Source: Candidatus Thiodiazotropha endoloripes
Lineage (GTDB): Bacteria > Pseudomonadota > Gammaproteobacteria > Chromatiales > Chromatiaceae
Direction: 5' to 3'
DNA: 64,000 nucleotides
Assembly: GCA_001709035.1 (NCBI GenBank)
Contig: LVKA01000023.1
Location: forward strand, 1-64,000
Of the stretch, positions 520-25,671 are shown one piece after another (position 1 is the stretch's first letter; each line of letters begins with the position of its first letter). Both the position numbers and the translations under genes were made by a program. A model generated the notes under the pieces. It was given only the letters and a program-made list of their open reading frames with translations, was not told the origin of the DNA and searched no databases.

Positions 520-1023
520 TCAAACGCCACCACTGTGAATGGTTTCGTAATAGACCTTTTCCAGTTGGTTCTTATGTTCCGTCTCTTCATTGGCAAGGAA
601 TTGAAAAAGCTCCTTGATCGGACCATCCTCGGTGCTCTGGGCGAGGGCATGGTACTGTTCCATGGCCGCATGTTCACGACCTAATGCATATTGCAGTACC
701 GACTGGTCGTCGGGTCTGTCACCCAGTTCGGGAAGATGGATGGCATCGGAAAACTTTTTATCACTTGCCGGGATCTCCACCAGGGTTTGAACCTGCTGCT
801 CCAGGCCGGGACGGTTTTTCAGTTCGCTGAACAGATCAAAATGGCGTTGCTCCTCTTCCGCCAGCTCCTCCACCAGATAGCGTATCTGTTTACTGACTTT
901 TGGAATCAGATCCGTGTAGAAATCCCGGGCAGTACGTTCGAACTCAATCGCGACTTCAAGAATCTCCGCCAGGCTTTTTTTCGATTTCAGTCTGTCGTAA
1001 CCGCTGCTATGACCTTCAGACAT
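520..1023 (-). CDS. Ferritin-like (rubrerythrin-type) di-iron protein
   Basis: A 167-residue protein predicted to be a four-helix bundle. Carboxylate/His pairs are spaced as in rubrerythrin: EFERTARDFY (about 27-36), EEEQRHFDLF (about 56-65), REHAAMEQYH (about 116-125) and NEETEHKNQL (about 145-154). There is no C-terminal rubredoxin domain, so it is a ferritin-like domain protein, not a classical rubrerythrin. It begins 20 bases after the stop of the last subunit of the Mbx-like operon and is probably co-transcribed with it. A role in peroxide or iron handling next to oxygen-sensitive Fe-S proteins is inference. Confidence 0.85.
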   Translation of the reverse strand: MSEGHSSGYDRLKSKKSLAEILEVAIEFERTARDFYTDLIPKVSKQIRYLVEELAEEEQRHFDLFSELKNRPGLEQQVQTLVEIPASDKKFSDAIHLPELGDRPDDQSVLQYALGREHAAMEQYHALAQSTEDGPIKELFQFLANEETEHKNQLEKVYYETIHSGGV

Positions 1024-1042: not shown

Positions 1043-2899
1043 TTATTGCTGATTCAACCACTCATCGATGCTGGCGGCCACGCGATGACCATCCGCTACC
1101 GCATGAACTACGTCCGGTCCGTTGACACAGTCACCGGCGGCCCACAACCAGTCGGCCGAGGTGCGACCCTGTTCATCGATACTGAGGCGGCCCCGTTGCC
1201 AATCCAGGATTTCTGTCAGTTCGTCACCGAGCAGGTTGTTGTCCGACATCTGACCGATGGCTTCAATCACCATGTCTGCTGCATGAATCTGCTCATCCTG
1301 TTCGTCATACTTCGGTGCGAAGCGACCTTGCTCATCGAATATGGAACGGACCTTCCAGGTCTTCAGTCCGACCAGCTTGTTATTTTTGATGATACACGCC
1401 TGGGGACCTCTTGCATCATAGATCTCGATGCCTTCCTCCAGACATTCTTTGATCTCCACCGGGTCAGCCAGAAAGTGAGCCATATCTTCCAGCGCTGTGA
1501 CCGTGACCTGTACTTTGCCAAGCTGCTGTTGCTGTTGCCGGGCGAGGGTTCTGGCAATGTCCATCGCCACGTTACCACCACCAATGACCACAGCCCTATG
1601 TGGAATCTCATAATCTTCATCATCGGTGGTTCTACGCAGTAGATCGATCGCTTTACGGACCTGTTTGTGGTCGGCGCCGGGAACCCGGGTGGAGCGGCCA
1701 AGATGCAGACCGATGGCTAACACCACCGCATCAAAATCCGCTTCCAGCTGGGTCATAGTGATATCCTTGCCGACCTGAATACCGGTCTGGATCTTCACCC
1801 CCATGGAGGTGATCACATCGATGTCCCGGTCAAGCATATCGTAGGGCAGGCGGTATTCAGGAATGCCGTAACGGGGCATACCACCCGCTTCCTTACGGGC
1901 TTCGAATACCGTCACCTGATGACCTTTGCGTATCAGGTCATAGGCGGCAGTGAGACCAGCCGGCCCGGCACCGATGATGGCGATCTGTTTGCCACTCAGA
2001 TAGTCCGCTTTACCTTCCGCAGCAATCTGTTTGATCCGTTCATGATCCACCGAATCCATGGCGTAGCGTTTCAGCCAGCGGATGGAGACCGGTTCACCCC
2101 GCCGGCCGATCGAACAGGCGTCCTCGCAACGATGGGTGCAGACCCGGCCACAGACATGGGAGAAGGGATTGCTTTGATAGATCCAGCGTACCGCCTCTTC
2201 CAGATTACCCTGCCAGATCGAGCGGATGTACTCGGGAGCGTCCATATGGGTGGGGCAGGCATCATGGCACATGCCGCACTGAACGCAGCGTGAGGCTTCG
2301 ATCACCGCCTGCTGATCGGTATAGCCGGCAACGATCTCATTGAAGTTATCGATTCGCTCCTCGGCTTCCAGCTCGGCCATCGGCTGACGGTTCAGATCGA
2401 GCAGGTCGGAGTCACTGGTCTTCTGCCAACCCTCACCGTAATACTCGCCATGGATACCGGTTTCGTTCGGTAGAATGAAGTAGCTGTCGATCTCCTCCTG
2501 GGTACAGGTATGAACATATTCACGGGAGAGGGAGATGGCACTGGTCGGACAGATGTCCACACACAGGGCGCACCAGCAGCAACGGCCATAATCGATCGCC
2601 GGTCGCAGATTGCGTATCCCGTTGATCGGATCTTCCGGCAGATGGGGAACCTTAACCATGGTGATGGCGGCGTTGTCACAGACTTTCTGGCAGGAACTGC
2701 AGCCGATGCACTTTTCATGATCGTTGAGGTGAAAGCCCCGGTAGTTGTCTGCTGCCGGGCGGGGTTCCAGCGGAACTGTGACTGGTTTGCGCATGAAAAA
2801 CTGCAGCGCCTTGAGCGGGCTGAGGATAGAGCCGGCCTCCTCATGCTCGATAGTCACATTCTGTTTACTCTGTTTTGCATTATCAATCGGTTTGGACAT
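1043..2899 (-). CDS. Fusion of NuoI/MbxN-like ferredoxin and GltD/NfnL-like NAD(P)H oxidoreductase
   Basis: A 618-residue two-part protein. The N-terminal part has two 4Fe-4S motifs of the NuoI type: C64-x2-C67-x2-C70-x3-C74 and C107-x2-C110-x2-C113-x3-C117-P. From about residue 203 it continues as a GltD/NfnL-type module: a further Cys-rich segment (RCVQCGMCHDACP, then VCGRVCTHRCEDAC), an FAD dinucleotide fold (GAGPAG near 312), an NAD(P) fold (GGGNVAMD) and a C-terminal AAGD flavin motif. It is the last subunit of the Mbx-like operon, 19 bases after the large subunit gene. In archaeal Mbx the equivalent MbxN is a separate ferredoxin-like protein. The fusion suggests electron entry from, or delivery to, NAD(P)H at this subunit (inference). 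Confidence 0.85.
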   Translation of the reverse strand: MSKPIDNAKQSKQNVTIEHEEAGSILSPLKALQFFMRKPVTVPLEPRPAADNYRGFHLNDHEKCIGCSSCQKVCDNAAITMVKVPHLPEDPINGIRNLRPAIDYGRCCWCALCVDICPTSAISLSREYVHTCTQEEIDSYFILPNETGIHGEYYGEGWQKTSDSDLLDLNRQPMAELEAEERIDNFNEIVAGYTDQQAVIEASRCVQCGMCHDACPTHMDAPEYIRSIWQGNLEEAVRWIYQSNPFSHVCGRVCTHRCEDACSIGRRGEPVSIRWLKRYAMDSVDHERIKQIAAEGKADYLSGKQIAIIGAGPAGLTAAYDLIRKGHQVTVFEARKEAGGMPRYGIPEYRLPYDMLDRDIDVITSMGVKIQTGIQVGKDITMTQLEADFDAVVLAIGLHLGRSTRVPGADHKQVRKAIDLLRRTTDDEDYEIPHRAVVIGGGNVAMDIARTLARQQQQQLGKVQVTVTALEDMAHFLADPVEIKECLEEGIEIYDARGPQACIIKNNKLVGLKTWKVRSIFDEQGRFAPKYDEQDEQIHAADMVIEAIGQMSDNNLLGDELTEILDWQRGRLSIDEQGRTSADWLWAAGDCVNGPDVVHAVADGHRVAASIDEWLNQQ

Positions 2900-2918
2900 C
2901 AGCGATTACCCATAGATC

Positions 2919-4061
2919 TCAACGGTCAACTTCCGGTGGACAGGCATCCAGAGAGAACATGGTCTGGGCAATGTCCTCGATACGTGATCCAACGGACATC
3001 TTCTCCAGTACCTGTACCGCATGCATGGATGATGGCCCCCGCACATGCACCCGATAGGGCTTGGGGCCACCGTTGGAGACCACGTAGTAGCAGAGTTCAC
3101 CTTTGGATGATTCAACCCGGGTGTAGGTCTCTCCAGCAGGGACATTCCAGGCCAGAGGATTGGGGATCGGCGCTCGAATCGGACCATGGATGTCGGGCAG
3201 AATCTCCACTACCTGGCGAAGGATGCGAATACTCTCCATCAACTCTTTACGGCGAACCAGGGTGCGTGCCCAGGCATCACCGCTCTCTTCAACCGGGATA
3301 TCGAACTCCAGTTGATCGTAGACCAGATAGGGGTCATCCCGACGTACATCGAAGGCCAGTCCGGTGGCCCGTAGATTGGGTCCGGTGACACCCCACTCGA
3401 GCGCCTGTTCACGGGACATCACTCCGGTGCCTTTGGCCCGCTTGACGAACACTTGGTTCTTGAAGAAGAGGTTGTCGTAGTCGGGCAGTCGTGACTCGAT
3501 GTAGTCGAGAGTTTCTGTCAAGCGTTGCAGGAAACCGTCAGGCAGTTCCCGGCGCACTCCACCGGGAATGTTGTAGATGCTGTAGACCCGACCGCCAGTG
3601 AACTCCTCGAACAGATCGAGCAACAGATCCCGGTCGGCCACCCCCCAGTACATGGTACTGTACATGCCGGTGGTCGCCGCATGACCGCCGAAGGTGAACA
3701 GATGGGCCGCGATGCGCGACAGTTCCAGCTGCATCACCCGTAACCACTGAGCCCGTTGCGGCACCTTCAGTCCGCACAACTCTTCAACCGCCATCGAGTA
3801 ACAAAGCTCCATCGGTGAAGGGTCAGGCACACAGATACGAGGCACCAGGGCGATGTTCTGAATCCACAGCCGCTGCTCCATCAGTTTTTCAAACCCCCGG
3901 TGCAGATAACCACCATCCGCCTTGGCCTCCAGCACGATATCACCATGCAGTTTAACCTTAAGTGCATAGTTGCCTTCGATACCCGGATGGTTCGGACCGA
4001 AATTGAGTTCATACTCATTACTCGGCGGCTGGCGCTGGGCTTCGTAATTCTCAGGTCTCAT
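2919..4061 (-). CDS. mbxL: MbxL/NuoD-like large catalytic-site subunit
   Basis: A 49-kDa-type subunit of the complex I/group 4 hydrogenase superfamily, about 380 residues. The usual NiFe-binding motifs are changed. The N-terminal site reads RICVPDP, with Cys77 only (the second Cys of a CxxC is missing). The C-terminal site reads DACPPEVDR, with Cys374 only. A hydrogenase would have CxxC at both; complex I NuoD would have none. One cysteine at each site is what I recall of MbxL from archaeal sulfane reductase. I start at the ATG 13 residues before the conserved YELNFGP block. An in-frame ATG at 4142 would add 27 residues; neither start has a strong ribosome site. The symbol is by homology. Confidence 0.8.
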   Translation of the reverse strand: MRPENYEAQRQPPSNEYELNFGPNHPGIEGNYALKVKLHGDIVLEAKADGGYLHRGFEKLMEQRLWIQNIALVPRICVPDPSPMELCYSMAVEELCGLKVPQRAQWLRVMQLELSRIAAHLFTFGGHAATTGMYSTMYWGVADRDLLLDLFEEFTGGRVYSIYNIPGGVRRELPDGFLQRLTETLDYIESRLPDYDNLFFKNQVFVKRAKGTGVMSREQALEWGVTGPNLRATGLAFDVRRDDPYLVYDQLEFDIPVEESGDAWARTLVRRKELMESIRILRQVVEILPDIHGPIRAPIPNPLAWNVPAGETYTRVESSKGELCYYVVSNGGPKPYRVHVRGPSSMHAVQVLEKMSVGSRIEDIAQTMFSLDACPPEVDR

Positions 4062-4252
4062 ATCGTTTCGCTTGTTTTTTAATTTGGGGTCCGCGGATGA
4101 GTGCGAATGTTCTAAGAAGCTTGCTTTTGACAAAGCAGGCATCGTTATCTTCAGCTAAGAACAACTGATGCACTCGGTGAAAATGTCGCAATCCAATAAC
4201 CATCAATAACATTTGTGTTTATCAGCATTCATTCGCGGACAGATAAAACTCT

Positions 4253-4822
4253 TCATTTCTTCTTTTGACTGAAGCGTTGCTCTTCCGGCGGGATGATCAC
4301 ACCACCACCTTCGGCAACCAGTTCCTGTAACCACTCCGGGTTGTACTCCTGCCAGCTCAGGTGTTCGTTGATATAGGCTTCGCTATCAAACTCTTTGCGC
4401 ATCGGCGGTGGACCGTCCCATTCGGTGAGGATGAACTTCTCCATATTGGGACTGCCTTCGAATTGTATGCCGTACATCTCATGGATATCCCGCTCGAAAA
4501 AGCCGGCGGGTTGATAGAGGTCGTATACCGAGAGATAGACACCGGGTTCACGAGCGATACGAATATGTGCTGAAACCAATGAGTGATTCTCGTAGGACCA
4601 GACGTGATAGACCAGTTCAAATTCGTCATCATCGATCCAGTCGACACAACTGATGGCGGATAGGTGAATATAGCCGGCTCGTCCCTGCAGCAGCTCCAGC
4701 AGGGCGGGCAGGGCATCCGCCGGCACATCGACCCGAACCCGGCGACTGCTTTTACGACGAACTTCGATGCCTTCGATCTCCTTCAGGAGATTGTCCAGCC
4801 AATGGGTGACTTCCTGAGTCAT
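4253..4822 (-). CDS. mbxK: MbxK/NuoC-like 30-kDa subunit
   Basis: A 189-residue protein with the complex I 30-kDa signature: ERDIHEMYGIQFEG followed by a W-D-G-PPPMRKEF segment (about residues 110-145). It forms the peripheral arm with the NuoB- and NuoD-like subunits. Its ATG overlaps the stop codon of the preceding NuoB-like gene by four bases, indicating translational coupling. A C-terminal extension of about 45 residues, ending in a Lys-rich tail, follows the conserved core. Confidence 0.85.
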   Translation of the reverse strand: MTQEVTHWLDNLLKEIEGIEVRRKSSRRVRVDVPADALPALLELLQGRAGYIHLSAISCVDWIDDDEFELVYHVWSYENHSLVSAHIRIAREPGVYLSVYDLYQPAGFFERDIHEMYGIQFEGSPNMEKFILTEWDGPPPMRKEFDSEAYINEHLSWQEYNPEWLQELVAEGGGVIIPPEEQRFSQKKK

Positions 4823-5532
4823 TCAATTGGCTCCTTGATATTGTGACCGAGGCGCATCTCAAGGGCCTCCAGGGGATTCTGATGCTGCTCCAGCAGGCGG
4901 GTGTGTTCACCTAGGGTGCCTTCACCCATCAGCTCATAGTGTTTCGCTTCGGTGATGATGTCGGTGGGGGTCTGCCAATCTTCACCGAACAGTTTCTGTT
5001 GATTACCCAGGTAGTAGTCATAGTTTTGGTAGTAATCCTGCCAACTGTCGGCTTCACCACTCTTGATGCGGTCCATCAACTTCTGCAGGCCGCTGATCAC
5101 TGCCTCGGGTCTCGGCATGCAACCGGCGATATAGAGATCGACCGGCATATATTCATCGAGTTTTTTAGCGGTGGCATAGCTTTGCCAGTACATGCCGCCA
5201 TTGACGGTGCAGGAGCAGATACCCACCACATATTTGGGTGAACCCATCTGTTCATAGGTGAGGATCACCCGCTTCAGGGTTTTGATCGAGACATAGCCGG
5301 TTATCAACAGAATATCGGCCTGTCTGGGAGAGACCATGGGTTGAATGCCAAGGCGCTCCATATCGAAACGGGAAGTCATCGCCGGCGGCAGTTCGATTGC
5401 CCCACAGCCGGTACAATAATGGAGAATGAACAGGGAGCGCGAGCGGCAGAAGCGCACCAAGTCATCGAACACCCGGGCCAGGGGGTTACCCTTTTTCTCT
5501 TCGACTACCGGTATCTTTTGTATTCTGCTCAT
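4819..5532 (-). CDS. mbxJ: MbxJ/NuoB-like small subunit carrying the proximal 4Fe-4S cluster
   Basis: A PSST/NuoB-family protein of about 237 residues. Cluster ligands are visible as YCTGCGAIE (CxxC, as in hydrogenase-type subunits rather than the tandem CC of complex I), GICSCTVNGG and AGCMPRPEA. This cluster would face the large-subunit active site. The reading frame is open from a TTG at 5544; ATG codons follow at 5538 and 5532. I chose 5532 (MSRIQK), but the start is uncertain. The C-terminal 80 residues beyond the NuoB core are rich in Tyr and Gln and unusual for NuoB. A gap of about 134 bases separates it from the NuoH-like gene. Confidence 0.85.
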   Translation of the reverse strand: MSRIQKIPVVEEKKGNPLARVFDDLVRFCRSRSLFILHYCTGCGAIELPPAMTSRFDMERLGIQPMVSPRQADILLITGYVSIKTLKRVILTYEQMGSPKYVVGICSCTVNGGMYWQSYATAKKLDEYMPVDLYIAGCMPRPEAVISGLQKLMDRIKSGEADSWQDYYQNYDYYLGNQQKLFGEDWQTPTDIITEAKHYELMGEGTLGEHTRLLEQHQNPLEALEMRLGHNIKEPIE

Positions 5533-5677
5533 AACCATCACCAAAGTCGTTGGGTTAACTTGCCGGTAGTGTTTTCGCTACTGGCATGTCAGTCCGGCAT
5601 TGCCGGTATTCAATTGCCTTGAGAGTCAATCACTGTTTTACAAGGACTCGCCACACACTCTCCCGGTTGGCGTAAAT

Positions 5678-6574
5678 TCACATCACGAATGCCAAGCCGA
5701 TCAGTCCCAGCATCACCGGCCATTTCCACATCAGACGCAACAGATCCTCGGTGCGATAGCGGGGAAACAAGTAGGCAATACTCACCGGAATGGCCAGCAC
5801 CAGAAAACTCTTGATCAGAAAATCGAACCAGGTGGTGCCGCCACCAAGGAACAGACTCACATAGAGTACCGAGGTGGTGTAGAGCTGGAAACACTGCATC
5901 ACAAACAGGCCACCCAGATACTTACCACTCATCTCAACCATCGGCCCGGTGGCAATCTCAGCCGGGGCGATATAGATCTCGAAAGGCTGTTTACCCAGTG
6001 AGGCGTGCATGGCGATCAGGCCGGCGATGGCCAGCAGTGGCATCTCAATCACACCCCAGGTTGCAAAACCACCAGCCTGCTGTGTAGCGATGATCTCTAC
6101 CAGATTGGTGGTGCCGGCGGCATAGGCGACGCCAAAGATGACGATGACCAAGGGAATATCGTAGGCCAGCATGGCAGTCAGTGCGCGGGCAATGCCGATC
6201 GAGCCATTGGGATTGGCGCACTGACCGACACCCAACGCCAGGCCGAGGGACGGAATCATCATCAGATAGAGCAGGGTGATCAGTCCCCCCTTCTCCGCAA
6301 TGCCGTCCATACCGGGTACCGGTAGCAGGGTCTCTGCGGCAATGTAGCCGCCCATCGCCATGACTATTCCGATGTCATGAATCAGGCCGTGTGAGACCTG
6401 AGTGCGTTTACCGTGAAGCTTGACGATGTCGTAGAGCGGCTGAAAGAAAGGTGGTCCAATACGTCGTTGAATCTTTGCCGCGATACGCCGCATCATCAGC
6501 ACCATCATCATGCCGACGATAAAGGCAATTAGCGGCATCAGGGTCAGTTCTATGAGAAGTTCGATCGGTGCCAT
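5678..6574 (-). CDS. mbxM: MbxM/NuoH-like membrane anchor subunit
   Basis: A 298-residue membrane protein with about eight hydrophobic helices and NuoH family motifs: the RRIGPP segment near residue 38, DIVKLHGK, and an E-rich loop (QPFEIYIAPAEIATGP, about 200-215). It links the peripheral Fe-S arm to the ion-translocating arm. Its ATG overlaps the stop of the upstream NuoL-like gene (TGATG). It is about 30 residues shorter than typical complex I NuoH, which fits group 4 hydrogenase and Mbx anchors. Confidence 0.85.
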   Translation of the reverse strand: MAPIELLIELTLMPLIAFIVGMMMVLMMRRIAAKIQRRIGPPFFQPLYDIVKLHGKRTQVSHGLIHDIGIVMAMGGYIAAETLLPVPGMDGIAEKGGLITLLYLMMIPSLGLALGVGQCANPNGSIGIARALTAMLAYDIPLVIVIFGVAYAAGTTNLVEIIATQQAGGFATWGVIEMPLLAIAGLIAMHASLGKQPFEIYIAPAEIATGPMVEMSGKYLGGLFVMQCFQLYTTSVLYVSLFLGGGTTWFDFLIKSFLVLAIPVSIAYLFPRYRTEDLLRLMWKWPVMLGLIGLAFVM

Positions 6575-8451
6575 CAGAATACCACCCAGGCAATGATGAA
6601 GAGTGCTGTGCTTAACAGATAGAATTCAGAGTTGGCACGTCGGTAGATACCCTGCATGCCAAGGGAGAGAAATTCAACCAGCGAGGTAATGCTGTTTTCC
6701 AGCCACTGAAAGCTACCCCGATACCAACCCTTGATCAGATGCATCAAGCCGGAGTAGAAATTGTCACTGTATTGGTAGCGCACATCGGCAGTGAGAAAGT
6801 GACCACCGGCATAGTTGTCGAGCTGGTGAACCCGCTTACTGGGTCCGGCGGAGTAGAAGATCACAGCGCCGATACCAAAGCCGGCGAACAGCACGCCGAT
6901 CACCCAGATCATATCGAGGCTGCCGCTGGAGGATTCGATGCCACCTAGGGTGATCTCGGGACCAGTGAGGCCAATCGTCTGCAGTGCGGCGGTTACCCAA
7001 GTGAGTGGGATACCGGGCAGCAGTCCAGTGACGAAGATCGTGCCGGCCAGTATCAGCATCGGTATCATCATGCTCCAGGGGGCTTCGCGAACTGGTTCGT
7101 GCTCCACTCTCAGTTGGCCGAGAAACATATTGTGAATCAGCTTGTAGACCGACAGGATGGTGCCGAGCGTACCGATGATGGTGCCGAGGAAAAGCAGTGG
7201 CATACCGTCTTCCAGCAGTGAGCGATAGACCAGCCATTTGGAGACGAAACCGTTCATCGGGGGCAGGCCTGCCAGGCCGATGATACCGGTCAGCAGTACC
7301 AGAAAGGAGAGTGGCATTCGCGTGACCAGGCCACCCAGTTTGTTCAGATCAGCGGTACCTGTGCGATGCATGACAGCAAACACCGCCATCAACAGCGCCG
7401 CCTGACAGGCTGCATAGTTCAGAACATGAAGCAGACCACCGGCAGCCCCTAGGGAGTTGGCAGTGACCAGGCCGAGTAACATGTAGCCACCCTGACCGAT
7501 GCCATGCCAGGCCAGCAGATAGCGGGCGTCATTCTGTTTCAGGGCAGTATAGGTGGGAAAGATAATGGTAAACACCGCAATCCAGGCCAGCAGGTCCCGG
7601 GCATCGATGAGCGTGAAGGGGATCTTAAGGCTGTCGATGTTGACGATGCCGAACAGCTTCACCAATACCAGCAGTATGGCAAACAGACCCATACGGGATG
7701 AGATGGCGCCGAGGAAGGCGCTGCCGGGTCCTGGGGTCTCCGCATAGGCGGCCGCTTGCCAGAGATGAAAGGGCAGCAAACCCATCTTGATGCCGAAACC
7801 ACTACCGAAGAGTAGTACCAGCATCCAGAGCTGGCCGGTGCTCATTTTTTCAACCGCAATCAATATGGCTTCATACTGCAGTGAACCGGCCGCCGCATAA
7901 ACCAGTGCAATACCACCGAAGATCGACATCCCGCCGACAACCGCATAGGTGATGTAACGCATGGCTGCCTTGGTGGCAACACCTCCGGCAACGGCCATCA
8001 GCAGGAAGCCCGCCCAACTGACCAGTTCCCAGCCGATGAAGAGGGAGAGCAGATCGCCGCTGGCGAGCAGGATCAGCATGGTAAAAACATTCAACGCCAT
8101 CGCCAGATGAAACAGCCAGACATTGCCTCCCTGCTGTTTGAATTTTCGTTCCCACTCACCACAGGAGAACCAACTGGTGAGCAGTGCCGCTACCAGGGTG
8201 ATCAGTGCAAAGAACCAGCTCAGGGCATCGAAACGCCAGGAGAGATCCTGTCCCATCACCGAGAGGCTCAACTCGGAGGCGATGGGATCCCCGCCATAAC
8301 CCAGTGCGGCCATCTTGATCAGGACCAGCAGTTGTCCTGCATAGAGTATGGTGACCATCCAGCCCACCGCCAGACCGCGGCCCAGTACCAGGGCAACCAG
8401 CACAGTGGCAGCCGAAAAGATCAAAAGCTCATCCAATAGGCTGAAAATCAC
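6574..8451 (-). CDS. mbxH': MbxH'/NuoL-like proton or sodium antiporter subunit
   Basis: A 625-residue polytopic protein of the NuoL/MrpA-D family. The core has the family block KMGLLPFHLWQAAAYAETPG and the LPPMNGFVSKW segment. It is longer than the MrpD-like neighbour because of a C-terminal extension of about 150 residues containing further helices, as in NuoL. It is the second antiporter-like subunit of the complex, matching the position of H' in archaeal mbx. Start and stop overlap both neighbours (ATGA with mnhD-like, TGATG with mbxM). Confidence 0.85.
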   Translation of the reverse strand: MIFSLLDELLIFSAATVLVALVLGRGLAVGWMVTILYAGQLLVLIKMAALGYGGDPIASELSLSVMGQDLSWRFDALSWFFALITLVAALLTSWFSCGEWERKFKQQGGNVWLFHLAMALNVFTMLILLASGDLLSLFIGWELVSWAGFLLMAVAGGVATKAAMRYITYAVVGGMSIFGGIALVYAAAGSLQYEAILIAVEKMSTGQLWMLVLLFGSGFGIKMGLLPFHLWQAAAYAETPGPGSAFLGAISSRMGLFAILLVLVKLFGIVNIDSLKIPFTLIDARDLLAWIAVFTIIFPTYTALKQNDARYLLAWHGIGQGGYMLLGLVTANSLGAAGGLLHVLNYAACQAALLMAVFAVMHRTGTADLNKLGGLVTRMPLSFLVLLTGIIGLAGLPPMNGFVSKWLVYRSLLEDGMPLLFLGTIIGTLGTILSVYKLIHNMFLGQLRVEHEPVREAPWSMMIPMLILAGTIFVTGLLPGIPLTWVTAALQTIGLTGPEITLGGIESSSGSLDMIWVIGVLFAGFGIGAVIFYSAGPSKRVHQLDNYAGGHFLTADVRYQYSDNFYSGLMHLIKGWYRGSFQWLENSITSLVEFLSLGMQGIYRRANSEFYLLSTALFIIAWVVF

Positions 8452-9920
8452 AATTGGCCTCCGGGCGTTGCCGGTATCACGGTTTGTATGTAGAGCTCGG
8501 TATTTTTTGCCTCGGCCGCGACGGCTTGCAGTCCATCACCGATCGGGGCGATCAGAACTGTGGCCGTCAGCAGGGCGATGCCGAACAGTGAAGCCGTAGC
8601 CAGGGAGAGACCGGGCAATTGTTGATGCTCAGGCTGTTCGGATGTGGTCTCGGCTGAGCTGTAGAGTTTCACCACGATGCGAAATAGATAACTTGTCTCG
8701 ATTACCGTGGCCAAAAGAAATACCAGCAGACCGATCAGATAGAGTGGCTCGCTCTGGGCGGCCAGCTCGGTGATCAGGGTGAATTTGGCCCAGAAGCCGG
8801 GTAGGGGGGGAACCCCAACCAGGGAGAGGGCGAACAGGGTGAACAGTGCCGCACCAACCGGTGACCTTTTGGCCGCTCCGGTCAACCGCTCGAGCGATCC
8901 GCCCCAGCCATCGGCTAGCATGAAGAGTCCCGTTTTGATCACCAGATGGTGAAGCGACAGGGCCAGCAGGGCCAACAGCCCCCGCTCATCCGGTAAGGAG
9001 AGGGCGATAAAGATGATGCCCAGTTGACCGATCGAGGAGAAGCCGAGCATACGTCGCATATCCTTCGCCCGCCAGGCCGCGAATTCACCACTGATAACCC
9101 CCAGTATGCCGAGTATGAGAACAATCTGTACCGCTTCCGGCTGATCAAATATCAGCACCAGCAGCCGCAGTATGATCAGCAGTGCCAGTTTCGACAGCAA
9201 TCCGGCAAGGAAGCCGGAGAGCCGACTGGAGGCGGTGGCATAGATCTCCGGCACCCAGGCGTTGACCGGAAACAGTTCCGCTTTGACACCGATACCGATC
9301 AGGATCAGCAGGTAGGCGGTCAATCCCAGTCGATTGTTTAGCAGTTCCGGCGCCAGTTGTGCCAGATGGGCCAGGTTGAGGGTGCCGGTCTGGCTGTAGA
9401 TCAGTGCGATACCGAGCAGCGTCAACACGGAACCGATACCGCTCAAGATCAGATATCGAAAAGTTGCGGCGTAAGCGGCTGAGGTGCTGGAAGCAACCAC
9501 CAGCCCGAAGGTGGCCACGGCAGCCAGTTCATAAAAGACATACAGATTGAACAGATCGCCGGAGAGCGCCAGTCCGGTCGAGGCGGCAACCAGTAGCAGC
9601 ATCAGGGCCTGTCGTCTGGCCGTATCCTGATTCAAACCATAGGGCCAGCAGATCAATCCCAGCAGCTGTACCGCAAAGGCAAACAACAGGGCCAGTGAGT
9701 CCAGGTAGAGATTGATGCCATATGGGGCATCAAATCCACCAATCGCAACCGACAATGGCAGGCTGATGTCGCTAAACCAGAGATTGCCCAACAACCAACA
9801 ACCATAACCCAGAATGATCGGTCCGAGCCATAAGCCAAGAGCCTGGGAGAGACGCATCACCACAGGCAGTAAGAAGGCGCCAAGCAGAGGCAGGGCGATG
9901 GTCAGCACCAGGTTGTTCAT
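8448..9920 (-). CDS. mbxH: MbxH/MrpD-like antiporter subunit
   Basis: A 490-residue membrane protein with some 14 hydrophobic helices, of the MrpD/NuoN-like antiporter family. Visible motifs include GVKAELFPVNAWVPEIYATA and the LVGVPPLPGFWAK loop, which in this family carry charged residues of the ion channel. It starts with an ATGA overlap on the MrpC-like gene and ends with an ATGA overlap on the NuoL-like gene. Confidence 0.85.
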   Translation of the reverse strand: MNNLVLTIALPLLGAFLLPVVMRLSQALGLWLGPIILGYGCWLLGNLWFSDISLPLSVAIGGFDAPYGINLYLDSLALLFAFAVQLLGLICWPYGLNQDTARRQALMLLLVAASTGLALSGDLFNLYVFYELAAVATFGLVVASSTSAAYAATFRYLILSGIGSVLTLLGIALIYSQTGTLNLAHLAQLAPELLNNRLGLTAYLLILIGIGVKAELFPVNAWVPEIYATASSRLSGFLAGLLSKLALLIILRLLVLIFDQPEAVQIVLILGILGVISGEFAAWRAKDMRRMLGFSSIGQLGIIFIALSLPDERGLLALLALSLHHLVIKTGLFMLADGWGGSLERLTGAAKRSPVGAALFTLFALSLVGVPPLPGFWAKFTLITELAAQSEPLYLIGLLVFLLATVIETSYLFRIVVKLYSSAETTSEQPEHQQLPGLSLATASLFGIALLTATVLIAPIGDGLQAVAAEAKNTELYIQTVIPATPGGQL

Positions 9921-10396
9921 GCATCGCCTCCTCGGGATTCAGCGGTATGCGCCGGAAGCGGTGACAGGGGCCGCTCACCGAGTGGTGCATCCTGACTGAT
10001 GTCCCTGCGGATTCCCGCACTGGCGGCTATTTCAGCATCCATTTTTTCCGCCACTTCACGACGCTTCAGGTTGCCATAGCGCTGGCGGATACGAATCAAT
10101 ATGCTGACAGCCAGTGCCTGGATGCCGACGCCAATCACAATCGCGGTCAGCACCATCGCCTGGGGAACCGGATCGACCATCGCCGGTTGGTCGGTTCGTT
10201 GCATCAGAATCGGTGCCACCGCATCCCAGCGATAGCCGGAGAGCACCAGCATCAGGTTGGCTCCCGCTTCGGCAATCACCAGCGCAAGCACCATGCGGAA
10301 CAGGTGGCTGCTGAGCACCACACCGGCCAGGCCGATAATCACCAGCCCCAGGGCCGTGACATAGAGTATCAGTTCAAGCGTCACACCCGGGATCAT
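9917..10396 (-). CDS. mbxG: MbxG/MrpC-like subunit
   Basis: A 159-residue NuoK/MrpC-family membrane protein. Three hydrophobic helices occupy the first 100 residues, with the family segment PQAMVLTAIVIGVGIQALAVSILIR written here as two parts: PQAMVLTAIVIG then VGIQALAV. The last 50 residues are polar and charged and probably cytoplasmic; they are longer than in typical MrpC. It overlaps both neighbours by ATGA, consistent with one polycistronic message. Confidence 0.85.
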   Translation of the reverse strand: MIPGVTLELILYVTALGLVIIGLAGVVLSSHLFRMVLALVIAEAGANLMLVLSGYRWDAVAPILMQRTDQPAMVDPVPQAMVLTAIVIGVGIQALAVSILIRIRQRYGNLKRREVAEKMDAEIAASAGIRRDISQDAPLGERPLSPLPAHTAESRGGDA

Positions 10397-11079
10397 TGTT
10401 CAGACTCCGTTTGTGCAAGGTTGGAGAGCAGGCTTGCCAACTCGGCGCCGACCTTCAAACCCACAGCGATATAGAGCAGCGGCAGGGTGCCGGCGGATAT
10501 CAGTGCACCAAGGGTATCCTGATTGAGCATCGGTTGCAGAAATGCCTGGCCCTCCCCCAGGGCGGCAAGTCCGATGAGAATAAAGCTGGCACCGGCAAAG
10601 GCTTCGATGACACTCAGGATAGAGTGGTGCAGGCGCGCCCCGGGTCGAGCCAACAGAGGCAGGAAAAAGGCTGCGGCAAGAATCACACCGCCCTGGAATC
10701 CGCCACCCGGTGTCAGATGGCCATGAAAGATGATGTAAAAGCCGATCGTCAGCAGAAACGGAAAGATCAAGGCGCCGCCATGAAAGAGCACAAATCCGCC
10801 TTTGCGCTGAGTGCCTGTGGTGGTATGTCGACGACCCAGCACCAGCCCGGCGGCCGAGGCGGCGGCAAACAGGATGGCAAGCTCCCCGAGCGTATCGATA
10901 CCCCGGTAGCCCAACACCACTGAGGTGACAATATTGGCTGCGCCGACCTCCTGGGGAGAGGCGGACTGAATGGCTTCGCCGATGCGCATTGGCGGACTGC
11001 CGAAATCGAGGCCGCTGGCGATCGCTAGCAGCATGAAACCCAGGCCGCCGGCAAACAACAGGCCGGTGAGTTTACGCAT
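10393..11079 (-). CDS. mbxF: MbhE-MrpB fusion (MbxF-like) subunit
   Basis: About 228 residues. The first 90 resemble MbhE, the C-terminal piece of MrpA, with the motif VVLGYRGIDTLGE. The rest is MrpB-like, with HGHLTPGGGFQGGV and a GLKVGAELAS ending. I start at the ATG at 11079 (MRKLTG), preceded by AGGGGGA about 8 bases upstream; the longer frame from 11103 lacks such a site. The start overlaps the end of the MbhD-like gene. Fusing the E and F functions in one chain is noted as a variation on the usual arrangement. Confidence 0.8.
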   Translation of the reverse strand: MRKLTGLLFAGGLGFMLLAIASGLDFGSPPMRIGEAIQSASPQEVGAANIVTSVVLGYRGIDTLGELAILFAAASAAGLVLGRRHTTTGTQRKGGFVLFHGGALIFPFLLTIGFYIIFHGHLTPGGGFQGGVILAAAFFLPLLARPGARLHHSILSVIEAFAGASFILIGLAALGEGQAFLQPMLNQDTLGALISAGTLPLLYIAVGLKVGAELASLLSNLAQTESEQ

Positions 11080-11383
11080 CTTCTTTCCCCCTGGTTGAAG
11101 CACTCAGCAGATTGCTGTTGTCACTTCCACTGTCGATCTGCCACAAGCCCAGGCGTCGCAGCGCCAAAGCCAGGATCAAACTGCTCAGACCGGCACCGAC
11201 AGCGGCTTCGGTCATTGCTACATCCGGTGCCCGCATCAGGGCAAACAGCAGCGCCAAACCGAGCGACACCACGGATGCGGCGGCTACCGCAGCGAGATGG
11301 TTTTTGACCACCAGTGCCAACACCGCACTGCTTAACATCATGATCCCCAGGATCAGGGCGATCCAAAGTTCTACTTCACTCAT
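11072..11383 (-). CDS. mbxD: MbxD/MbhD-like subunit (MrpA C-terminal domain)
   Basis: A 103-residue protein of three hydrophobic helices containing RAPDVAMTEAAVGAGLSS, the signature of the hydrogenase subunit MbhD/DUF4040 family. This family corresponds to the part of MrpA beyond its antiporter core. The frame stays open to 11524, but the ATG at 11383 (MSEVELW) overlaps the stop of the MrpG-like gene by four bases and gives the family length, so the upstream extension is rejected. Confidence 0.8.
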   Translation of the reverse strand: MSEVELWIALILGIMMLSSAVLALVVKNHLAAVAAASVVSLGLALLFALMRAPDVAMTEAAVGAGLSSLILALALRRLGLWQIDSGSDNSNLLSASTRGKEDA

Positions 11384-11697
11384 CGGTCGGCCTCTCCAGT
11401 ATGGCTGACGGTAGCCTTGCTCCAGGGTTTTACTCCGGCCTTCAGCAGTGCCCGGGCAATAGTCGAAGAGCCGAGTGGATTGGTAATCAGAATCAGCACG
11501 CCGATCACCAACAGCTTCGACCACCAGGCAGGGTAGAGCAGAGCGATGCCGATCAATAGGCAGAGCGAGCCAAGGGTAACCGCCTTGGTACCTGCCTGGA
11601 TGCGGTTATAGACATCGGGCATTCGGATCAGTCCAATGGCACCGAACAGGGTGAAGGCGGCACCGATAACAAGAAACAGATCGGCAATCAGTCTCAT
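11380..11697 (-). CDS. mbxC: MbxC/MrpG-like subunit
   Basis: A 105-residue MrpG/PhaG-family protein. The diagnostic segment is GLIRMPDVYNRIQAGTKAVTLG (residues about 22-43: R-M-P-D-x-Y-x-R, then K-x-x-T-L-G), followed by two further helices. It is an accessory subunit of the Mrp antiporter module. Its ATG overlaps the stop of the MrpF-like gene (TGATG). Confidence 0.85.
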   Translation of the reverse strand: MRLIADLFLVIGAAFTLFGAIGLIRMPDVYNRIQAGTKAVTLGSLCLLIGIALLYPAWWSKLLVIGVLILITNPLGSSTIARALLKAGVKPWSKATVSHTGEADR

Positions 11698-11960
11698 CAG
11701 CCGTTCCCCTCAATCGTACGGGCAATGGCGACAACACCGACAAATGCCAATGTGCCATAGATCAGAGCTACATCCAGATAGAGCGGGCTGCCCAGCAGGG
11801 CAGCGAGGATCACCAATCCCGATGTCGTGATCACCGCCAGGGTATCGGCGGCTACCACCCGGTCCGGGGCTGTGGGACCCAGGATGAGGCGCAACAGACT
11901 GAGTAGTACCGCAGCACCCAACAAGCCCAGTGCCACGATCTCCAATAGGGTTAATGTCAT
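11697..11960 (-). CDS. mbxB: MbxB/MrpF-like subunit
   Basis: An 87-residue protein with three hydrophobic helices and the MrpF motif GPTAPDRVVAADTL (about residues 28-41), then a short charged tail. It is a membrane subunit of the Mrp module. It starts with an ATGA overlap on the MrpE-like gene. Confidence 0.85.
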   Translation of the reverse strand: MTLTLLEIVALGLLGAAVLLSLLRLILGPTAPDRVVAADTLAVITTSGLVILAALLGSPLYLDVALIYGTLAFVGVVAIARTIEGNG

Positions 11961-12484
11961 AACACGAAGCCTTTCAGATGTTGTTCAAATTTACTGGTGA
12001 TGGCCTGGGTGGTGGATGCCAGATCACTCCCCGGGGGACAGTCGACCCAATGCACCAACAGCACCTGATCCTGCACATCGACAGTCAGGGTGCCGGGGGT
12101 CAGGGTAATGCTGTTGGCCAGAATAAGCCGGCCTAGCGGTGATTTGAGATTGGTCTCCACCTCAACCACAGCCGGTTGCAAAGGCAGTGAAGGACTCAGG
12201 ACCCGTCGGGCCATATCGAGGTTGGCTTGGACCAGCGCTACAGTGAAGGTGCCAAGGTAGCGCAGCAATGGAAGCAGGGCGGTCGGTGAGATGATCAGCC
12301 CGGTGAGGATGCTGAGGTGAGGTCGGCTTGCCAGGGTGACAATCAGAGCGACCACCACACCGGCAGCCATCTCCGTTGTATCCAGATTGCCGACCAACAG
12401 CATCCAGAGTGCAAATACAAGCAGGAAGAGAAACAGTCCGTGGACAAAACCGGGTTCAGGTTGTTGTATGGACTTCGTCATCAT
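11957..12484 (-). CDS. mbxA: MbxA/MrpE-like subunit, first gene of the operon
   Basis: A protein of about 175 residues with two N-terminal hydrophobic helices and a C-terminal soluble part with the MrpE signature LANSITLTPGTLTVDV. The frame also has a GTG at 12496. An AAAGG sequence lies directly against that GTG but at workable distance from the ATG at 12484, which I prefer. The 112 bases up to the alpha-E gene must hold the operon promoter unless transcription reads through from the Anbu-associated genes. I see no convincing -35/-10 pair there. Confidence 0.8.
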   Translation of the reverse strand: MMTKSIQQPEPGFVHGLFLFLLVFALWMLLVGNLDTTEMAAGVVVALIVTLASRPHLSILTGLIISPTALLPLLRYLGTFTVALVQANLDMARRVLSPSLPLQPAVVEVETNLKSPLGRLILANSITLTPGTLTVDVQDQVLLVHWVDCPPGSDLASTTQAITSKFEQHLKGFVL

Positions 12485-12596
12485 ACTCGGAGTCACCTTT
12501 TTGTTGTGGTTGTGGGTACTATTGTACGCGTTATTTCGTTATCAAATCATCTTTATGTTACAACCCGATGACGCCACTCAATATTCCATTTGTCAA

Positions 12597-13541
12597 TCAT
12601 GCGGCTGACATCAGCGCAGGCGGGAAATAGGCTTTTGAAATCGCTTCATGCAGGGTGCCAAAATCGATCTGTAAATCGTCAATAAACTCATGCAGCTCAT
12701 TGTTATCCATCTTATCCGTCAACATCTCTGTCAGGCGGGTATCGATCTTTTTCAGTACTTTTAGCGGTGTTCTGTTTTTCGGTAGACGGGAGAGATTGAA
12801 ACGGATGTTTTCCGTGCAATAATTTATTGAACGGGGAAAACCCTGTGTTTTAAAGAGGAACTGTAGAACGTCCTTACGATTGATTCTGACCTGCATATGT
12901 TGTCGATACATTTGATAAGCACTGAGTGACTTCAACATACTCATCCATAGAATGTCTTCAAATGGCGCCAGTTCAGGTGCCTCTTCCGAGAGTGGATTTT
13001 CGGGTCGTACATCGATGATACGTGTTGTCATATCGGCACGTTCCAGTTTTCGTCCCAAATTGAGAAAGCGGTAGGCCATGTCGTGATTCATACTGCCGGC
13101 CAGTAGCCCGGTCATCAGCTGTGAGCCAGCAATGATATGTTCCAGGTAAGATTGGCGGCCCTGGCGGGAAAAGCTGCTCTGTTTTCGCTCCAGGGCAGTC
13201 TGGTAATAACTGTTGATCGACTCCCAGGCTTCCCGCGGTAATATGTCGCGTATGGTGCGGGCATTCTCTCGCAATGCGCAGAGGGTGCTGATGATGGAGC
13301 TGGAATTGTATTCATCGTTGATCAAAAAATTCGCCACCCGGCGCTCGGTAAATTCCGGATGACGTGCCAGATAGGACTCGTAACAGCCCAGCAGGTTGAT
13401 CAGTGCATCCCAGCCTGGGGCACCCTTGGGCGGTAGATCCAGCATCAGATTGGTGTTGACGGTGATCAGACGCGCGGTGTTTTCAGCCCGTTCCTGATAA
13501 CGTCCTATCCAGTATATGGTTTGTGCGACTCGGGATAGCAT
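12597..13541 (-). CDS. Alpha-E domain protein (DUF403)
   Basis: A 314-residue, almost wholly helical protein beginning MLSRVAQTIYWIGRYQERAE, the recognisable start of the alpha-E (DUF403) family. A GAGGAG ribosome site lies 6 bases before the ATG. Alpha-E proteins are known to be encoded with circularly permuted ATP-grasp enzymes and transglutaminase-like proteins in a predicted peptide-synthesis or protein-tagging system. Here it is the last of three co-directed genes, 21 bases after the ATP-grasp gene. Its biochemical role is not established. Confidence 0.85.
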   Translation of the reverse strand: MLSRVAQTIYWIGRYQERAENTARLITVNTNLMLDLPPKGAPGWDALINLLGCYESYLARHPEFTERRVANFLINDEYNSSSIISTLCALRENARTIRDILPREAWESINSYYQTALERKQSSFSRQGRQSYLEHIIAGSQLMTGLLAGSMNHDMAYRFLNLGRKLERADMTTRIIDVRPENPLSEEAPELAPFEDILWMSMLKSLSAYQMYRQHMQVRINRKDVLQFLFKTQGFPRSINYCTENIRFNLSRLPKNRTPLKVLKKIDTRLTEMLTDKMDNNELHEFIDDLQIDFGTLHEAISKAYFPPALMSAA

Positions 13542-13562
13542 TGTTTACTCCTCAAATAGGCC

Positions 13563-15008
13563 CTAACTGTCCACGATCCAGGTATCCTTGCTGCCGCCAC
13601 CCTGGGATGAGTTCACCACCAGGGATCCTTTACGCAGTGCCACCCGGGTCAGCCCACCGGTGGTCACCTCCATCGACTTGCCGCTGAGGATGAACGGCCT
13701 CAGATCAACATGTCTGGGTTCTAGCAAACCGCCATTGATTGTGGGTACCGTAGAGATCGCCAGGGTTGGTTGTGCAATGTAGTTACGGGGATTCTTCTCA
13801 ATCAGCTTACGAAAGGTCTCTCGCTCCTGTCGGGACGATGACGGACCCACCAGCAGACCGTAACCACCCGATTCGTTGGCGGGTTTTACCACCAGCTCTT
13901 TAAGATGATCCAGGATATAATCACAGGATGGTTTGTCGATACAGCGCCAGGTTGGCACATTCGGTACGATGGGTTCCTGGTCCAGATAGTAGCGAATGAT
14001 ATCGGGCACAAAGGAGTAGACCACTTTGTCATCCGCCACACCGGCCCCCGGGGCATTGGCCATCGCTACATTACCCGCTTTCCAGGCCCGCATCAGACCG
14101 GGAACACCCAGCATCGAGTCGGCATTGAATGCCTCCGGATCAAGAAACAGATCATCGATACGGCGATAGATCACATCCACCCGGGAGTGCCCTTCGATAT
14201 TGCGCATATAGACACAATCATCCTTCTCAACAACCAGGTCGCGTCCCTCAACCAGCTCACATCCCATCTGTTGTGCCAGATAGGCATGTTCGAAGTAGGC
14301 TGAGTTGTAGATACCCGGGGTGAGTACCACGATCTCCGGATTATCTCCGGGACGGGGTGACAGGGCAGAGAGAGTATCGAACAGTTCGGATGGATAGTCA
14401 TCGATGGGCAGGGGACTGTAGGTTTCGAACAGTTCCGGGAACACCCGTTTGGTTACCAGTCGATTCTCCAGCATATAGGAAACCCCGGAGGGGACTCTCA
14501 GATTATCCTCCAGTACATAGATCTCACCCTTGTCGTCGCGGACCAGATCACTGCCGCAGATATGCGCCCAGACACCCAGTGGTGGATTGACACCGATACA
14601 TTGTTCACGGAAGTTTTCGGAATCTGCCAGCACTTCCGCCGGAAACACCTTGTCCTTGACGATCTGCTGTTTGTGATAAAGATCATCAATGAAAAGATTG
14701 AGTGCTTCGACCCGCTGCTTAAGACCGGATTCGATCCGGTCCCACTCTTTTTTCGGGATCAGTCGGGGCACGATATCGAACGGCCAGACCCGATCGATGG
14801 AACCCTCCTCTTCGGTATAGACGCGAAAGGTAATGCCCATCTGTTTGATCGCCAGTTCGGCACCCAGCTGGCGGGATGCCAGCTCTCCCTTATCGAGCTT
14901 ACCCAGATAGCTGATCAGTTTACGGGCATAGCCTCTGGCATGACCGTTGGGTGTGATCAGTTCATCGAAGAATGGATGGTTTTCAAAGGACTCCCGATTG
15001 ATGGTCAT
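13563..15008 (-). CDS. Circularly permuted type 2 ATP-grasp protein (DUF404/DUF407)
   Basis: A 481-residue member of the circularly permuted ATP-grasp family. Recognisable segments are EDNLRVPSGVSYMLENR (about 170-190), RVDVIYRRIDDLFLDPE (about 272-288), NAPGAGVADDK and the phosphate-binding-like ESGGYGLLVGP (about 380-390). It would ligate a carboxylate to an amine using ATP; its substrate is unknown. The ATG overlaps the stop of the transglutaminase gene by four bases. Association with alpha-E, transglutaminase and Anbu is a known conserved neighbourhood. Confidence 0.85.
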   Translation of the reverse strand: MTINRESFENHPFFDELITPNGHARGYARKLISYLGKLDKGELASRQLGAELAIKQMGITFRVYTEEEGSIDRVWPFDIVPRLIPKKEWDRIESGLKQRVEALNLFIDDLYHKQQIVKDKVFPAEVLADSENFREQCIGVNPPLGVWAHICGSDLVRDDKGEIYVLEDNLRVPSGVSYMLENRLVTKRVFPELFETYSPLPIDDYPSELFDTLSALSPRPGDNPEIVVLTPGIYNSAYFEHAYLAQQMGCELVEGRDLVVEKDDCVYMRNIEGHSRVDVIYRRIDDLFLDPEAFNADSMLGVPGLMRAWKAGNVAMANAPGAGVADDKVVYSFVPDIIRYYLDQEPIVPNVPTWRCIDKPSCDYILDHLKELVVKPANESGGYGLLVGPSSSRQERETFRKLIEKNPRNYIAQPTLAISTVPTINGGLLEPRHVDLRPFILSGKSMEVTTGGLTRVALRKGSLVVNSSQGGGSKDTWIVDS

Positions 15009-18391: not shown

Positions 18392-18585
18392 GGTGCGCTG
18401 GATGCTCCAGATTGGTGCTCTCGGGTGGTGTTGATAGCCATTTCAATACTTAAACAGGGTATAGAGCAGTTTTTATGCCAGCCAGGCGAAAACACTAATT
18501 ACGATTGAACCCGGAAAACGGTATCCAGGGATTTCAAATTTGTATTAAGATGCCTGGGTACACACTTAAACAGAAAGGTCGGTTT

Positions 18586-24143: not shown

Positions 24144-24281
24144 CCTCCATAATAGTGTTTCCTGGTACTAGATGAAACCCAGTGAAATACCTTCAATGAT
24201 ATATTAACTCTATAAAAACAAACAAAAATCCTGTTATAATCCTTTCATGGGGTTTCATTAGAATTCACCCATTGCAAAGTC

Positions 24282-24312
24282 AAATCTGCTACCCCAATCA
24301 CACTCGGGGTAG
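24282..24312 (+). repeat. Arm-type integrase site candidate
   Basis: The sequence TGCTACCCCAA lies between attL and the integrase gene and includes an inverted partner (GGGGTAG) 10 bases on. The same TGCTACCCCAA is found just inside the right end (about 42548-42558). Short repeats near both cores are typical of integrase arm-binding or excisionase sites; the assignment is inference. Confidence 0.4.
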
Positions 24313-24328
24313 CGCTGGGGTAACACTG

Positions 24329-25576: not shown

Positions 25577-25671
25577 CAGAGTACGCCAGATCTAGGCTCG
25601 CTACCGAAAAGCCGACTCCCTCGTCGGCCTGATCTGGCATTTAATTGAGGGTGAACATTGGAGGGAATGTC

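Follow-up and report, generated by a model that had tools for sequence, protein, structure and literature searches.

An Mbx/MBS-type membrane complex with its own predicted NAD(H) module in Candidatus Thiodiazotropha endoloripes

A stretch of 64,000 nucleotides from Candidatus Thiodiazotropha endoloripes (assembly GCA_001709035.1, contig LVKA01000023.1, positions 1 to 64,000; hereafter the window) was found to hold, on its minus strand from 12496 to 1043, thirteen tightly packed same-strand open reading frames (ORFs) in the order A-B-C-D-F-G-H-H'-M-J-K-L-N. They make up, in one unit, the full subunit set of the membrane-bound sulfane sulfur reductase (MBS, or Mbx), namely A, B, C, D, E/F, G, H, H', M, J, K, L and N, as listed in PMC7684303 (this and the other papers are cited here for excerpts of their text). 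The last subunit, N, is fused to a flavin module with a predicted NAD(H) site. We consider it an even chance that this Mbx/MBS-type membrane complex with its own NAD(H) module would act as a reversible, ion-coupled NAD(H):sulfane-sulfur oxidoreductase. The gene set, the family placement, the fusion, the conservation of cluster and NAD-site residues and the association with DsrA were computed here; the assembly, cofactor preference, substrate, coupling and direction of the complex are what we infer.

A preliminary description of the window, made from its letters, had announced thirteen coupled genes running from an MrpE-like to a NuoI-like protein. The gene set and order were confirmed, with the first gene reaching 12496 and not 12484, but the last gene was misjudged. 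Instead of a NuoI-like protein it encodes a fusion of 618 amino acids (aa), which matched NCBIfam PRK13984 (NF010590, “putative oxidoreductase”) over residues 23–618. Of the twelve junctions, three are gaps, of 133 (M-J), 110 (K-L) and 19 bases (L-N). At the other nine the genes overlap: 4 bases are shared at six junctions, 1 base at two, and more at D-F with the starts as listed.

The placement of the complex in the Mbx/MBS type, as the preliminary description had proposed, was supported above all by L, the NuoD-like subunit. Its best matches in the PDB were the P. furiosus MBS chain 6u8y_L (400 bits), T. thermophilus complex I (267) and the membrane-bound hydrogenase (MBH, 130). In a tree of 32 L rows, P. 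furiosus MbsL, the window type and two further types formed one group with support of 100/100, which left complex I in a separate group (95/86) and the group 4 hydrogenases in a third (100/99). Approximately unbiased (AU) topology tests rejected the window type with complex I (p-AU 0.0027) and with the hydrogenases (p-AU 0.0029), in a tree carrying a long-branch warning for E. coli HycE, P. furiosus MbhL, E. coli NuoD, P. furiosus MbsL and others. The phylogeny of the NuoD- and NuoB-like subunits, on which the preliminary description had made its proposal depend, left the Mbx assignment standing, being strongly favorable for L and weak for J. The J tree was poorly resolved: joining the window type (type 1) with complex I gave p-AU 0.035, and joining it with the hydrogenases was uninformative as the tree was unrooted. 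It adds little to the J match scores, which clearly favor MBS (6u8y_J 234 bits, chloroplast NdhK 125, MBH 106). Two further signs of an Mbx had been named, and they fared differently. The pair of antiporter-like subunits stood, H and H' matching MbsH and MbsH' best, but the CTGC motif of J is not diagnostic alone because hydrogenases also have CxxC.

A group 4 [NiFe] hydrogenase was considered and rejected. In each MbhL pair, L retains the first Cys (C104 and C401) but not the second, two of the four [NiFe] ligands being missing when read against the MbhL stretch, and the position of MbhL E21 is taken by G57 with the GPxHPG motifs lined up by eye.

The residues around the predicted active site were compared over the loci described below (the gene was too short or lacking in one of the 80 loci for J, in 11 for L and in 21 for N, and these are omitted from the counts). 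The cysteines of MbxJ are C44-T-G-C47, C112 and C142, in the numbering of the ORF as listed. The proximal cluster of MBS is held by three Cys (C28, C93 and C123 of MbsJ), C25 not being a ligand (PMC7684303). These three ligand positions were kept in 79/79 J sequences of the 80 loci and in 8/8 loci of types 2 and 3, and at the position of C25, type 1 has C and types 2 and 3 have G (CTGC and GTGC; complex I has CC). A three-Cys proximal cluster of the MBS pattern is predicted from these residues. MbxL has E56 and V105 at the positions of the quinone-site residues H38 and Y87 of T. thermophilus Nqo4, both of which were replaced (by E/T and V) in all 77 L sequences. C104 and C401 of MbxL correspond to MbsL C85 and C385 and were both kept in 69/69 sequences of the window type; in types 2 and 3, C85 was kept in 6/8 and the C385 position was Y in 8/8. 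In P. furiosus, mutants of MbsL C85 and C385 and of MbsJ C25 indicated no catalytic role for these residues (PMC7684303). The complex resembles the P. furiosus MBS (PDB 6u8y) in its subunit types, H and H' included, in the sequences of J and L, in the three-Cys pattern, in the two retained Cys of L and in having no quinone residues.

The fused N subunit sets the complex apart from that of P. furiosus, as it adds an NfnL-like NAD(H) module, and the organism is a bacterial sulfur oxidizer and not a fermenting archaeon. MbsN (208 aa) matched only residues 23–144 of N. A NuoI/MbxN domain at the N-terminus is followed by an NfnL/GltD-like FAD module with FAD and NAD Rossmann folds. The PRK13984 score of 820 bits is under the 946-bit equivalog cut-off of that family, whose architecture N shares. 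Its closest fold was the large subunit of NfnI, in a structure alignment covering mainly residues 178–617, the N-terminal domain being placed by sequence only. Sixteen Fe-S Cys were found, and four [4Fe-4S] clusters are predicted. Residues 469–471 read ALE at the position of the NADP(H)-linked motif YRR, which binds the NADP phosphate in NfnB (PMC7596348); NAD(H) is therefore predicted as the cofactor. The preliminary description was right to suspect NAD(P)H involvement, by way of a module that it had not seen.

The Nfn motif GRVCPQExQCx3Cx13Gx2ER (PMC6405883) is changed in N, where the stretch reads CGRVCTHRCEDAC...LKR. An extra Cys in this region, Cys 250, was conserved in 67/67 sequences, and in the alignment a K, invariant in 30/30, stands where P. 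furiosus NfnI has the E of its ER pair. The extra Cys and the K suggest a proximal cluster bound by Cys throughout, in contrast to the unusual cluster of Nfn. N is also like DsrL, a FAD/Fe-S NAD(P)H oxidoreductase of sulfur oxidizers in which YRR is present or absent. DsrL differs by a C-terminal ferredoxin domain and by its partner DsrAB, as the NAD(P)H:acceptor oxidoreductase of reverse-type DsrAB (rDsrAB), and the two DsrL-like proteins of the host genome were without the extra Cys of N (MGRVCPAPC). An orthologue of DsrL was rejected for N, which has an N-terminal NuoI-like domain and sits in the mbx operon, the DsrL-like genes of the host lying elsewhere; the second of these was located at G000:C10 (L139), at about 698–699 kb.

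Among 20 fetched regions of the window's family, three Mbx types were distinguished, the window belonging to type 1. Type 2 comprised six loci (L036–L041) with the gene order of the window, in which M and H' were only 30–33% identical to the window proteins and N 54–57%. Considered together, M, H and H' of type 2 were about 30–35% identical, next to 54–57% for N and 63–74% for the ferritin-like protein encoded behind it, as if N and ferritin might have been exchanged between different Mbx membrane parts. Type 3 consisted of loci L042 and L043, with N 39–40% identical to that of the window. Fused N was present in all eight type-2 and type-3 loci. At the YRR position, type 1 had A in 59/59 sequences, then L, I or M, then E (55), D (3) or Q (1), and the other types had ALE in 6/8 and YRR in 2/8, the latter being the two type-3 loci. 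On the precedent of DsrL, with YRR present or absent, types 1 and 2 are predicted to use NAD(H) and type 3 to use NADP(H).

Conservation of the operon was assessed by a J search of bacterial and archaeal genomes, which gave at least 543 confirmed relatives; the best 80 loci were kept for counts. In 45 of these 80 loci from other genomes, all 13 genes and the ferritin-like gene kept the order and strand seen in the window, so the arrangement is not due to chance; the other 35 were cut by contig ends, split, or had a short gene missed in BLAST. At least 4.5 kb of sequence follows J in 63 loci, of which 55 had N there and eight belonged to genomes with N elsewhere. Counting these eight, the fused N was present for 63/63 loci with enough sequence. 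No N followed J in 18 of the 80 loci. Five of them have tails below 2.1 kb (L056, L059, L087, L090 and L094), and the other 13 comprise ten from Thiomargarita, Parabeggiatoa or other Thiotrichales, two labeled otherwise (L112 and L123) and L096 from a Chromatiaceae metagenome-assembled genome (MAG). The check for N elsewhere covered the eight of these 13 that have at least 4.5 kb after J, and so not L108, L112, L115, L120 and L123. The suspicion that giant sulfur bacteria (Thiomargarita, Parabeggiatoa and relatives) have an Mbx lacking the NAD module was not supported, as 8/8 checked genomes have a fused N elsewhere. In genomes of the Thiomargarita/Parabeggiatoa type (L109–L117) the mbx genes are scattered, with J-K(-L) in one place and the fused N in another.

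The ferritin-like gene begins 19 bases downstream of mbxN in the window. It followed N in 59 of the 62 loci with N, the contigs ending in the remaining three, and lay within 1.5 kb after N in 4/8 genomes with N apart from J. The gene is thus tied to N more closely than to the other mbx genes.

The closest J genes among the best 80 (97% identity) came from the Stewartia floridana gamma proteobacterium symbiont, Candidatus Thiodiazotropha taylori, Candidatus Thiodiazotropha sp. ‘RUGA’ and a Chromatiales bacterium, which marks the host as a sulfur oxidizer of the lucinid-clam-symbiont type. The record titles of 40 of the 80 loci name sulfur-oxidizing genera, Thiotrichaceae/Thiotrichales, or symbionts of lucinids or tubeworms; Ca. 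Thiodiazotropha, Sedimenticola, Lamprocystis, Thiohalocapsa, Thiolapillus, Parasulfuritortus, Thiomargarita and Parabeggiatoa are among them, genera whose physiology we take to be that of sulfur oxidizers. The other 40 titles are broader (Gammaproteobacteria, Chromatiales, Gallionellaceae, Hydrogenophilales, Hyphomicrobiales), and the labels “Dichelobacter nodosus”, “Lysobacterales” and “Alcanivoracaceae” are MAG names taken as given. Named strains with an mbx J locus include Lamprocystis purpurea DSM 4197 and Parasulfuritortus cantonensis LSR1.

The distribution of the N fusion was then compared with that of DsrA and RuBisCO. Fusion matches at E ≤ 1e-80 were found in 14 of 274 genomes of a Gammaproteobacteria class sample, spread over 13 families, and in 6 of 299 genomes of a phylum sample, both counts including the window's own genome. 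Within the family of the window, a whole or partial fusion match above 300 bits was present in 35 of 96 genomes. At E ≤ 1e-60, 93 genomes of the class sample had a DsrA match; 87 of these matches exceed the curated cut-off and 6 are fragments. The 93 include each of the 14 fusion carriers, vs. 79 of the 260 other genomes (p 1.3e-7), and by the curated cut-off alone 12/14 carriers had DsrA (p 3.0e-5). RuBisCO (E ≤ 1e-100) was present in 11/14 carriers vs. 117/260 others (p 0.014). The 47 RuBisCO-positive, DsrA-negative genomes included no carrier, and the 12 with DsrA but no strong RuBisCO match included three; the fusion thus tracks DsrA more closely than it does RuBisCO. The host genome itself (4.87 Mb, 25 contigs) has two dsrA genes over the family cut-off and a cluster of dsrA, dsrB, two DsrE-family genes, a DsrK-like gene, a DsrL-like gene and an NrfD-type gene, which we take as the oxidative type. 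It also has one RuBisCO match and a separate complex I with NuoE, NuoF and NuoG. The dsrA copies lie at G000:C7 and G000:C14 (L138 and L141), and the ORF after the C14 copy looks dsrB-like by eye.

According to the mechanism proposed here, electrons would pass between NAD(H) and FAD and, via the four [4Fe-4S] clusters of fused N, to the three-Cys [4Fe-4S] cluster of J, where an S-S bond of a polysulfide or persulfide would be made or broken. L, M and H' would transmit the redox change to the H/H' pumps and to the Mrp-like distal module, as in MBS. In respiring cells with a high ion gradient the complex would form NADH, electrons from sulfide or persulfide being pulled uphill to NAD+ by inward ion flow, so that sulfur oxidizers would obtain NADH by a path that avoids the quinone pool. 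Where oxygen is absent and the gradient low, the complex could reverse and discharge NADH onto stored sulfur. With NADH in place of ferredoxin, most of the drive toward polysulfide reduction is lost. The oxidative direction is expected because NADH gives little drive, a high gradient pulls in reverse, and the NAD-preferring DsrL-1 goes with sulfur oxidation (PMC7596348). With moderate weight, the NADH-forming direction is held to be the more likely one in respiring cells. Possible, and put forward tentatively, is the wider proposal that sulfur-oxidizing Proteobacteria possess an ion-driven sulfide/persulfide:NAD+ oxidoreductase complex that makes NADH directly from reduced sulfur, with no passage through the quinone pool or complex I; it would come in NAD- and NADP-specific subtypes, and a diiron protein attached to it would guard or serve the complex.

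Several observations weigh against the proposed reading of the complex. The biochemistry known for MBS is reductive, with ferredoxin (PMC7684303). In the Riftia symbiont, a putative Mrp-Mbx complex shares network neighbors with the reductive tricarboxylic acid (rTCA) cycle, hydrogenases and sulfur globule proteins, and not with reverse Dsr (rDsr), Sox or the Calvin-Benson-Bassham cycle (PMC11636981), so a reductive or ferredoxin-linked role fits at least as well. DsrA was no discriminator inside the window's family (29/35 carriers vs. 52/61 non-carriers, p 0.78), and at class level the test makes no correction for shared ancestry (the 14 carriers fall into 13 families) and used E-value limits chosen after the lists were seen. 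The pump residues listed in PMC7684303 are not all kept, 7/10 being identical in the window sequence. In the printed alignment, for the window only, H' has E128, K217, H336 and K399 as in MBS and R for K248; H has E138, K250 and K393, with E219 replaced by K and H330 by L. Finally, the ferritin-like companion has no role in the proposed model.

The most serious rival has the same complex running mainly in reverse, as an NADH-dependent sulfane-sulfur respiratory reductase with which sulfur-storing bacteria and symbionts would breathe their own globules in anoxia, making sulfide and an ion gradient. It would accord with the reduction of polysulfide by MBS (PMC7684303), with the 4.36-fold rise of T. 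maritima mbxA with S0 (PMC9431562) and with the Riftia symbiont, in which the network sets the Mrp-Mbx and Sgp genes next to those of the rTCA cycle, and O2 limitation elicits a response of sgpA and of genes for glycogen breakdown (PMC11636981). We nevertheless rate it as unlikely, given that the predicted site is of the NAD type, the DsrL variant tied to sulfur oxidizers, and not of the NADP type. Pumping against a high gradient with the little drive that NADH offers toward polysulfide would also be improbable. Less probable again is a complex that, as in P. furiosus, still has ferredoxin as its chief soluble partner, the gradient moving electrons between sulfide and ferredoxin for the rTCA cycle or N2 fixation and the NAD module being a side branch. 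The N-terminal domain of N is indeed of the MbxN/NuoI type that takes ferredoxin electrons in MBS (PMC7684303), co-expression with rTCA genes was described in the Riftia symbiont (PMC11636981), and PMC6349859 repeats an older view in which P. furiosus Mbx is a ferredoxin:NADP+ oxidoreductase; however, the NAD module is not optional, in view of the 63/63 loci, and most class carriers have RuBisCO (11/14 strong matches).

That the fused module bifurcates, sending NADH electrons partly to low-potential ferredoxin and partly to the sulfur site in the manner of Nfn, seems very improbable despite the closest fold being the NfnI large subunit. N is probably non-bifurcating because the Nfn cluster motif is absent, with Cys 250 and K for E in its place, and no NfnA-type FAD/[2Fe-2S] gene was found by Pfam scans of the operon proteins. 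N thus differs from the Nfn large subunit in having no small subunit in the operon, a changed Fe-S motif and no YRR in types 1 and 2, and identity with a bifurcating Nfn was rejected. Hardly to be expected at all is a complex I variant in which NADH would reduce quinone through an alternative N-module. Overall homology to complex I exists, and Pfam and NCBIfam call the subunits NuoB, NuoC and NuoD, but the quinone-site residues were absent throughout (77/77), J has CTGC or GTGC and not the adjacent Cys pair of NuoB, and the L tree excludes complex I. The NuoEFG N-module was not found in the mbx unit (ORF and Pfam survey) and sits at a separate locus of the same genome, as part of its own complex I. 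Respiratory complex I was rejected on these grounds.

The presence of Mbx in bacteria is already known from T. maritima (PMC9431562) and the Riftia symbiont (PMC11636981). The T. maritima Mbx, bacterial, S0-induced and with a 13-subunit unit (PMC9431562), is likened here by description and not by sequence. It may have the same N fusion; PRK13984 passed its cut-off in 1/14 control genomes, a set that includes T. maritima, the genome of the match not being named. The Mrp-Mbx complex of the Riftia symbiont is described as S0-reducing in other organisms, with no mention of an NAD module in the excerpt (PMC11636981). Judging from four loci of Lamellibrachia and Escarpia symbionts, which have the full operon with fused N, it is very probably the same system. 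So far as the literature was searched, four points are new: that this Mbx has an NAD(H) module of its own, that the subtypes are predicted to differ in cofactor, that a ferritin-like gene accompanies it and that it is linked to DsrA. No description of an NAD-module-fused Mbx was found in the excerpts searched, subscription papers being outside the search, nor any paper with both “Thiodiazotropha” and “Mbx”. By term counts, antiporter, Rnf and NADH were absent from the main text of a 2026 transcriptome paper on Ca. Thiodiazotropha endolucinida, and a search on sulfide production from stored sulfur by lucinid hosts gave nothing usable.

NAD(P)H in sulfur-oxidizing autotrophs and symbionts is usually explained by costly reverse electron flow through quinone and complex I. 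An Mbx hard-wired to NAD(H) would offer a cheaper, reversible route to NADH or, alternatively, respiration of stored sulfur in anoxia. If true, an ion-driven sulfide/persulfide:NAD+ complex would be an unrecognized reverse electron flow route in chemosynthetic symbionts, and the predicted NAD/NADP switch between subtypes would provide a natural comparison. The complex would also add an intermediate to the MBH-MBS-complex I series, MBS-like and with an NADH input gained independently of NuoEFG.

The features of the operon are collected in the table. The start of MbxD is inferred as the ATG overlapping the stop of C, the mechanical ORF starting at 11524. MbxF has a weak match to PF20501 MbhE (22.3 bits, under the cut-off of 27), and its true start may be a few codons downstream of the one listed.

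Table. Coordinates and best matches of the mbx operon and the adjoining ferritin-like gene in the window
Feature	Length (aa)	Position	Strand	Match
MbxA (MrpE-like)	179	11957..12496	-	PF01899 MNHE 124.6 bits
MbxB (MrpF-like)	87	11697..11960	-	PF04066 62.6 bits
MbxC (MrpG-like)	105	11380..11697	-	PF03334 (MnhG) 86.6 bits
MbxD (MbhD-like)		11072..11383	-	PF13244 69.1 bits
MbxF (MbhE + MrpB fused)	236 as listed	10393..11103	-	PF04039 (MnhB) 73.0 bits
MbxG (MrpC/NuoK-like)	159	9917..10396	-	PF00420 69.7 bits
MbxH, first antiporter-like subunit	490	8448..9920	-	Proton_antipo_M; 6u8y_H 212 bits, next 148
MbxH', second antiporter-like subunit	625	6574..8451	-	Proton_antipo_M; 6u8y_X 170 bits, next 125
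MbxM (NuoH-like membrane anchor)	298	5678..6574	-	NADHdh; 6u8y_M 181 bits, next 70
MbxJ (NuoB-like)		4819..5544	-	Oxidored_q6; 6u8y_J 234 bits, next 125
MbxK (NuoC-like)	189	4253..4822	-	Complex1_30kDa, PF00329 91.5 bits
MbxL (NuoD-like)	407 as listed	2919..4142	-	Complex1_49kDa; 6u8y_L 400 bits
MbxN fused to NfnL/GltD-like FAD-NAD(H) module (predicted)	618	1043..2899	-	Fer4 + Fer4_20 + Pyr_redox_2
Rubrerythrin/ferritin-like protein with ExxH motifs	167	520..1023	-	PF02915 49.8 bits

Adjoining mbxA, at 12597–19386, the window encodes an Alpha-E protein, a circularly permuted ATP-grasp protein, a divergent proteasome-type hydrolase and an ORF of 1128 aa that is transglutaminase-like by eye only; this group resembles the Anbu-type peptide-ligase cluster. 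Farther along, the region 24272–42678 is a low-GC stretch (0.36–0.48) that ends at a tRNA-Asn. It looks like an integrated phage-type or satellite element and contains a tyrosine integrase, a Toprim/AAA protein, a Terminase_2 small subunit, a DUF4238 protein, an ankyrin-repeat protein and a 1288-aa protein without a Pfam match.

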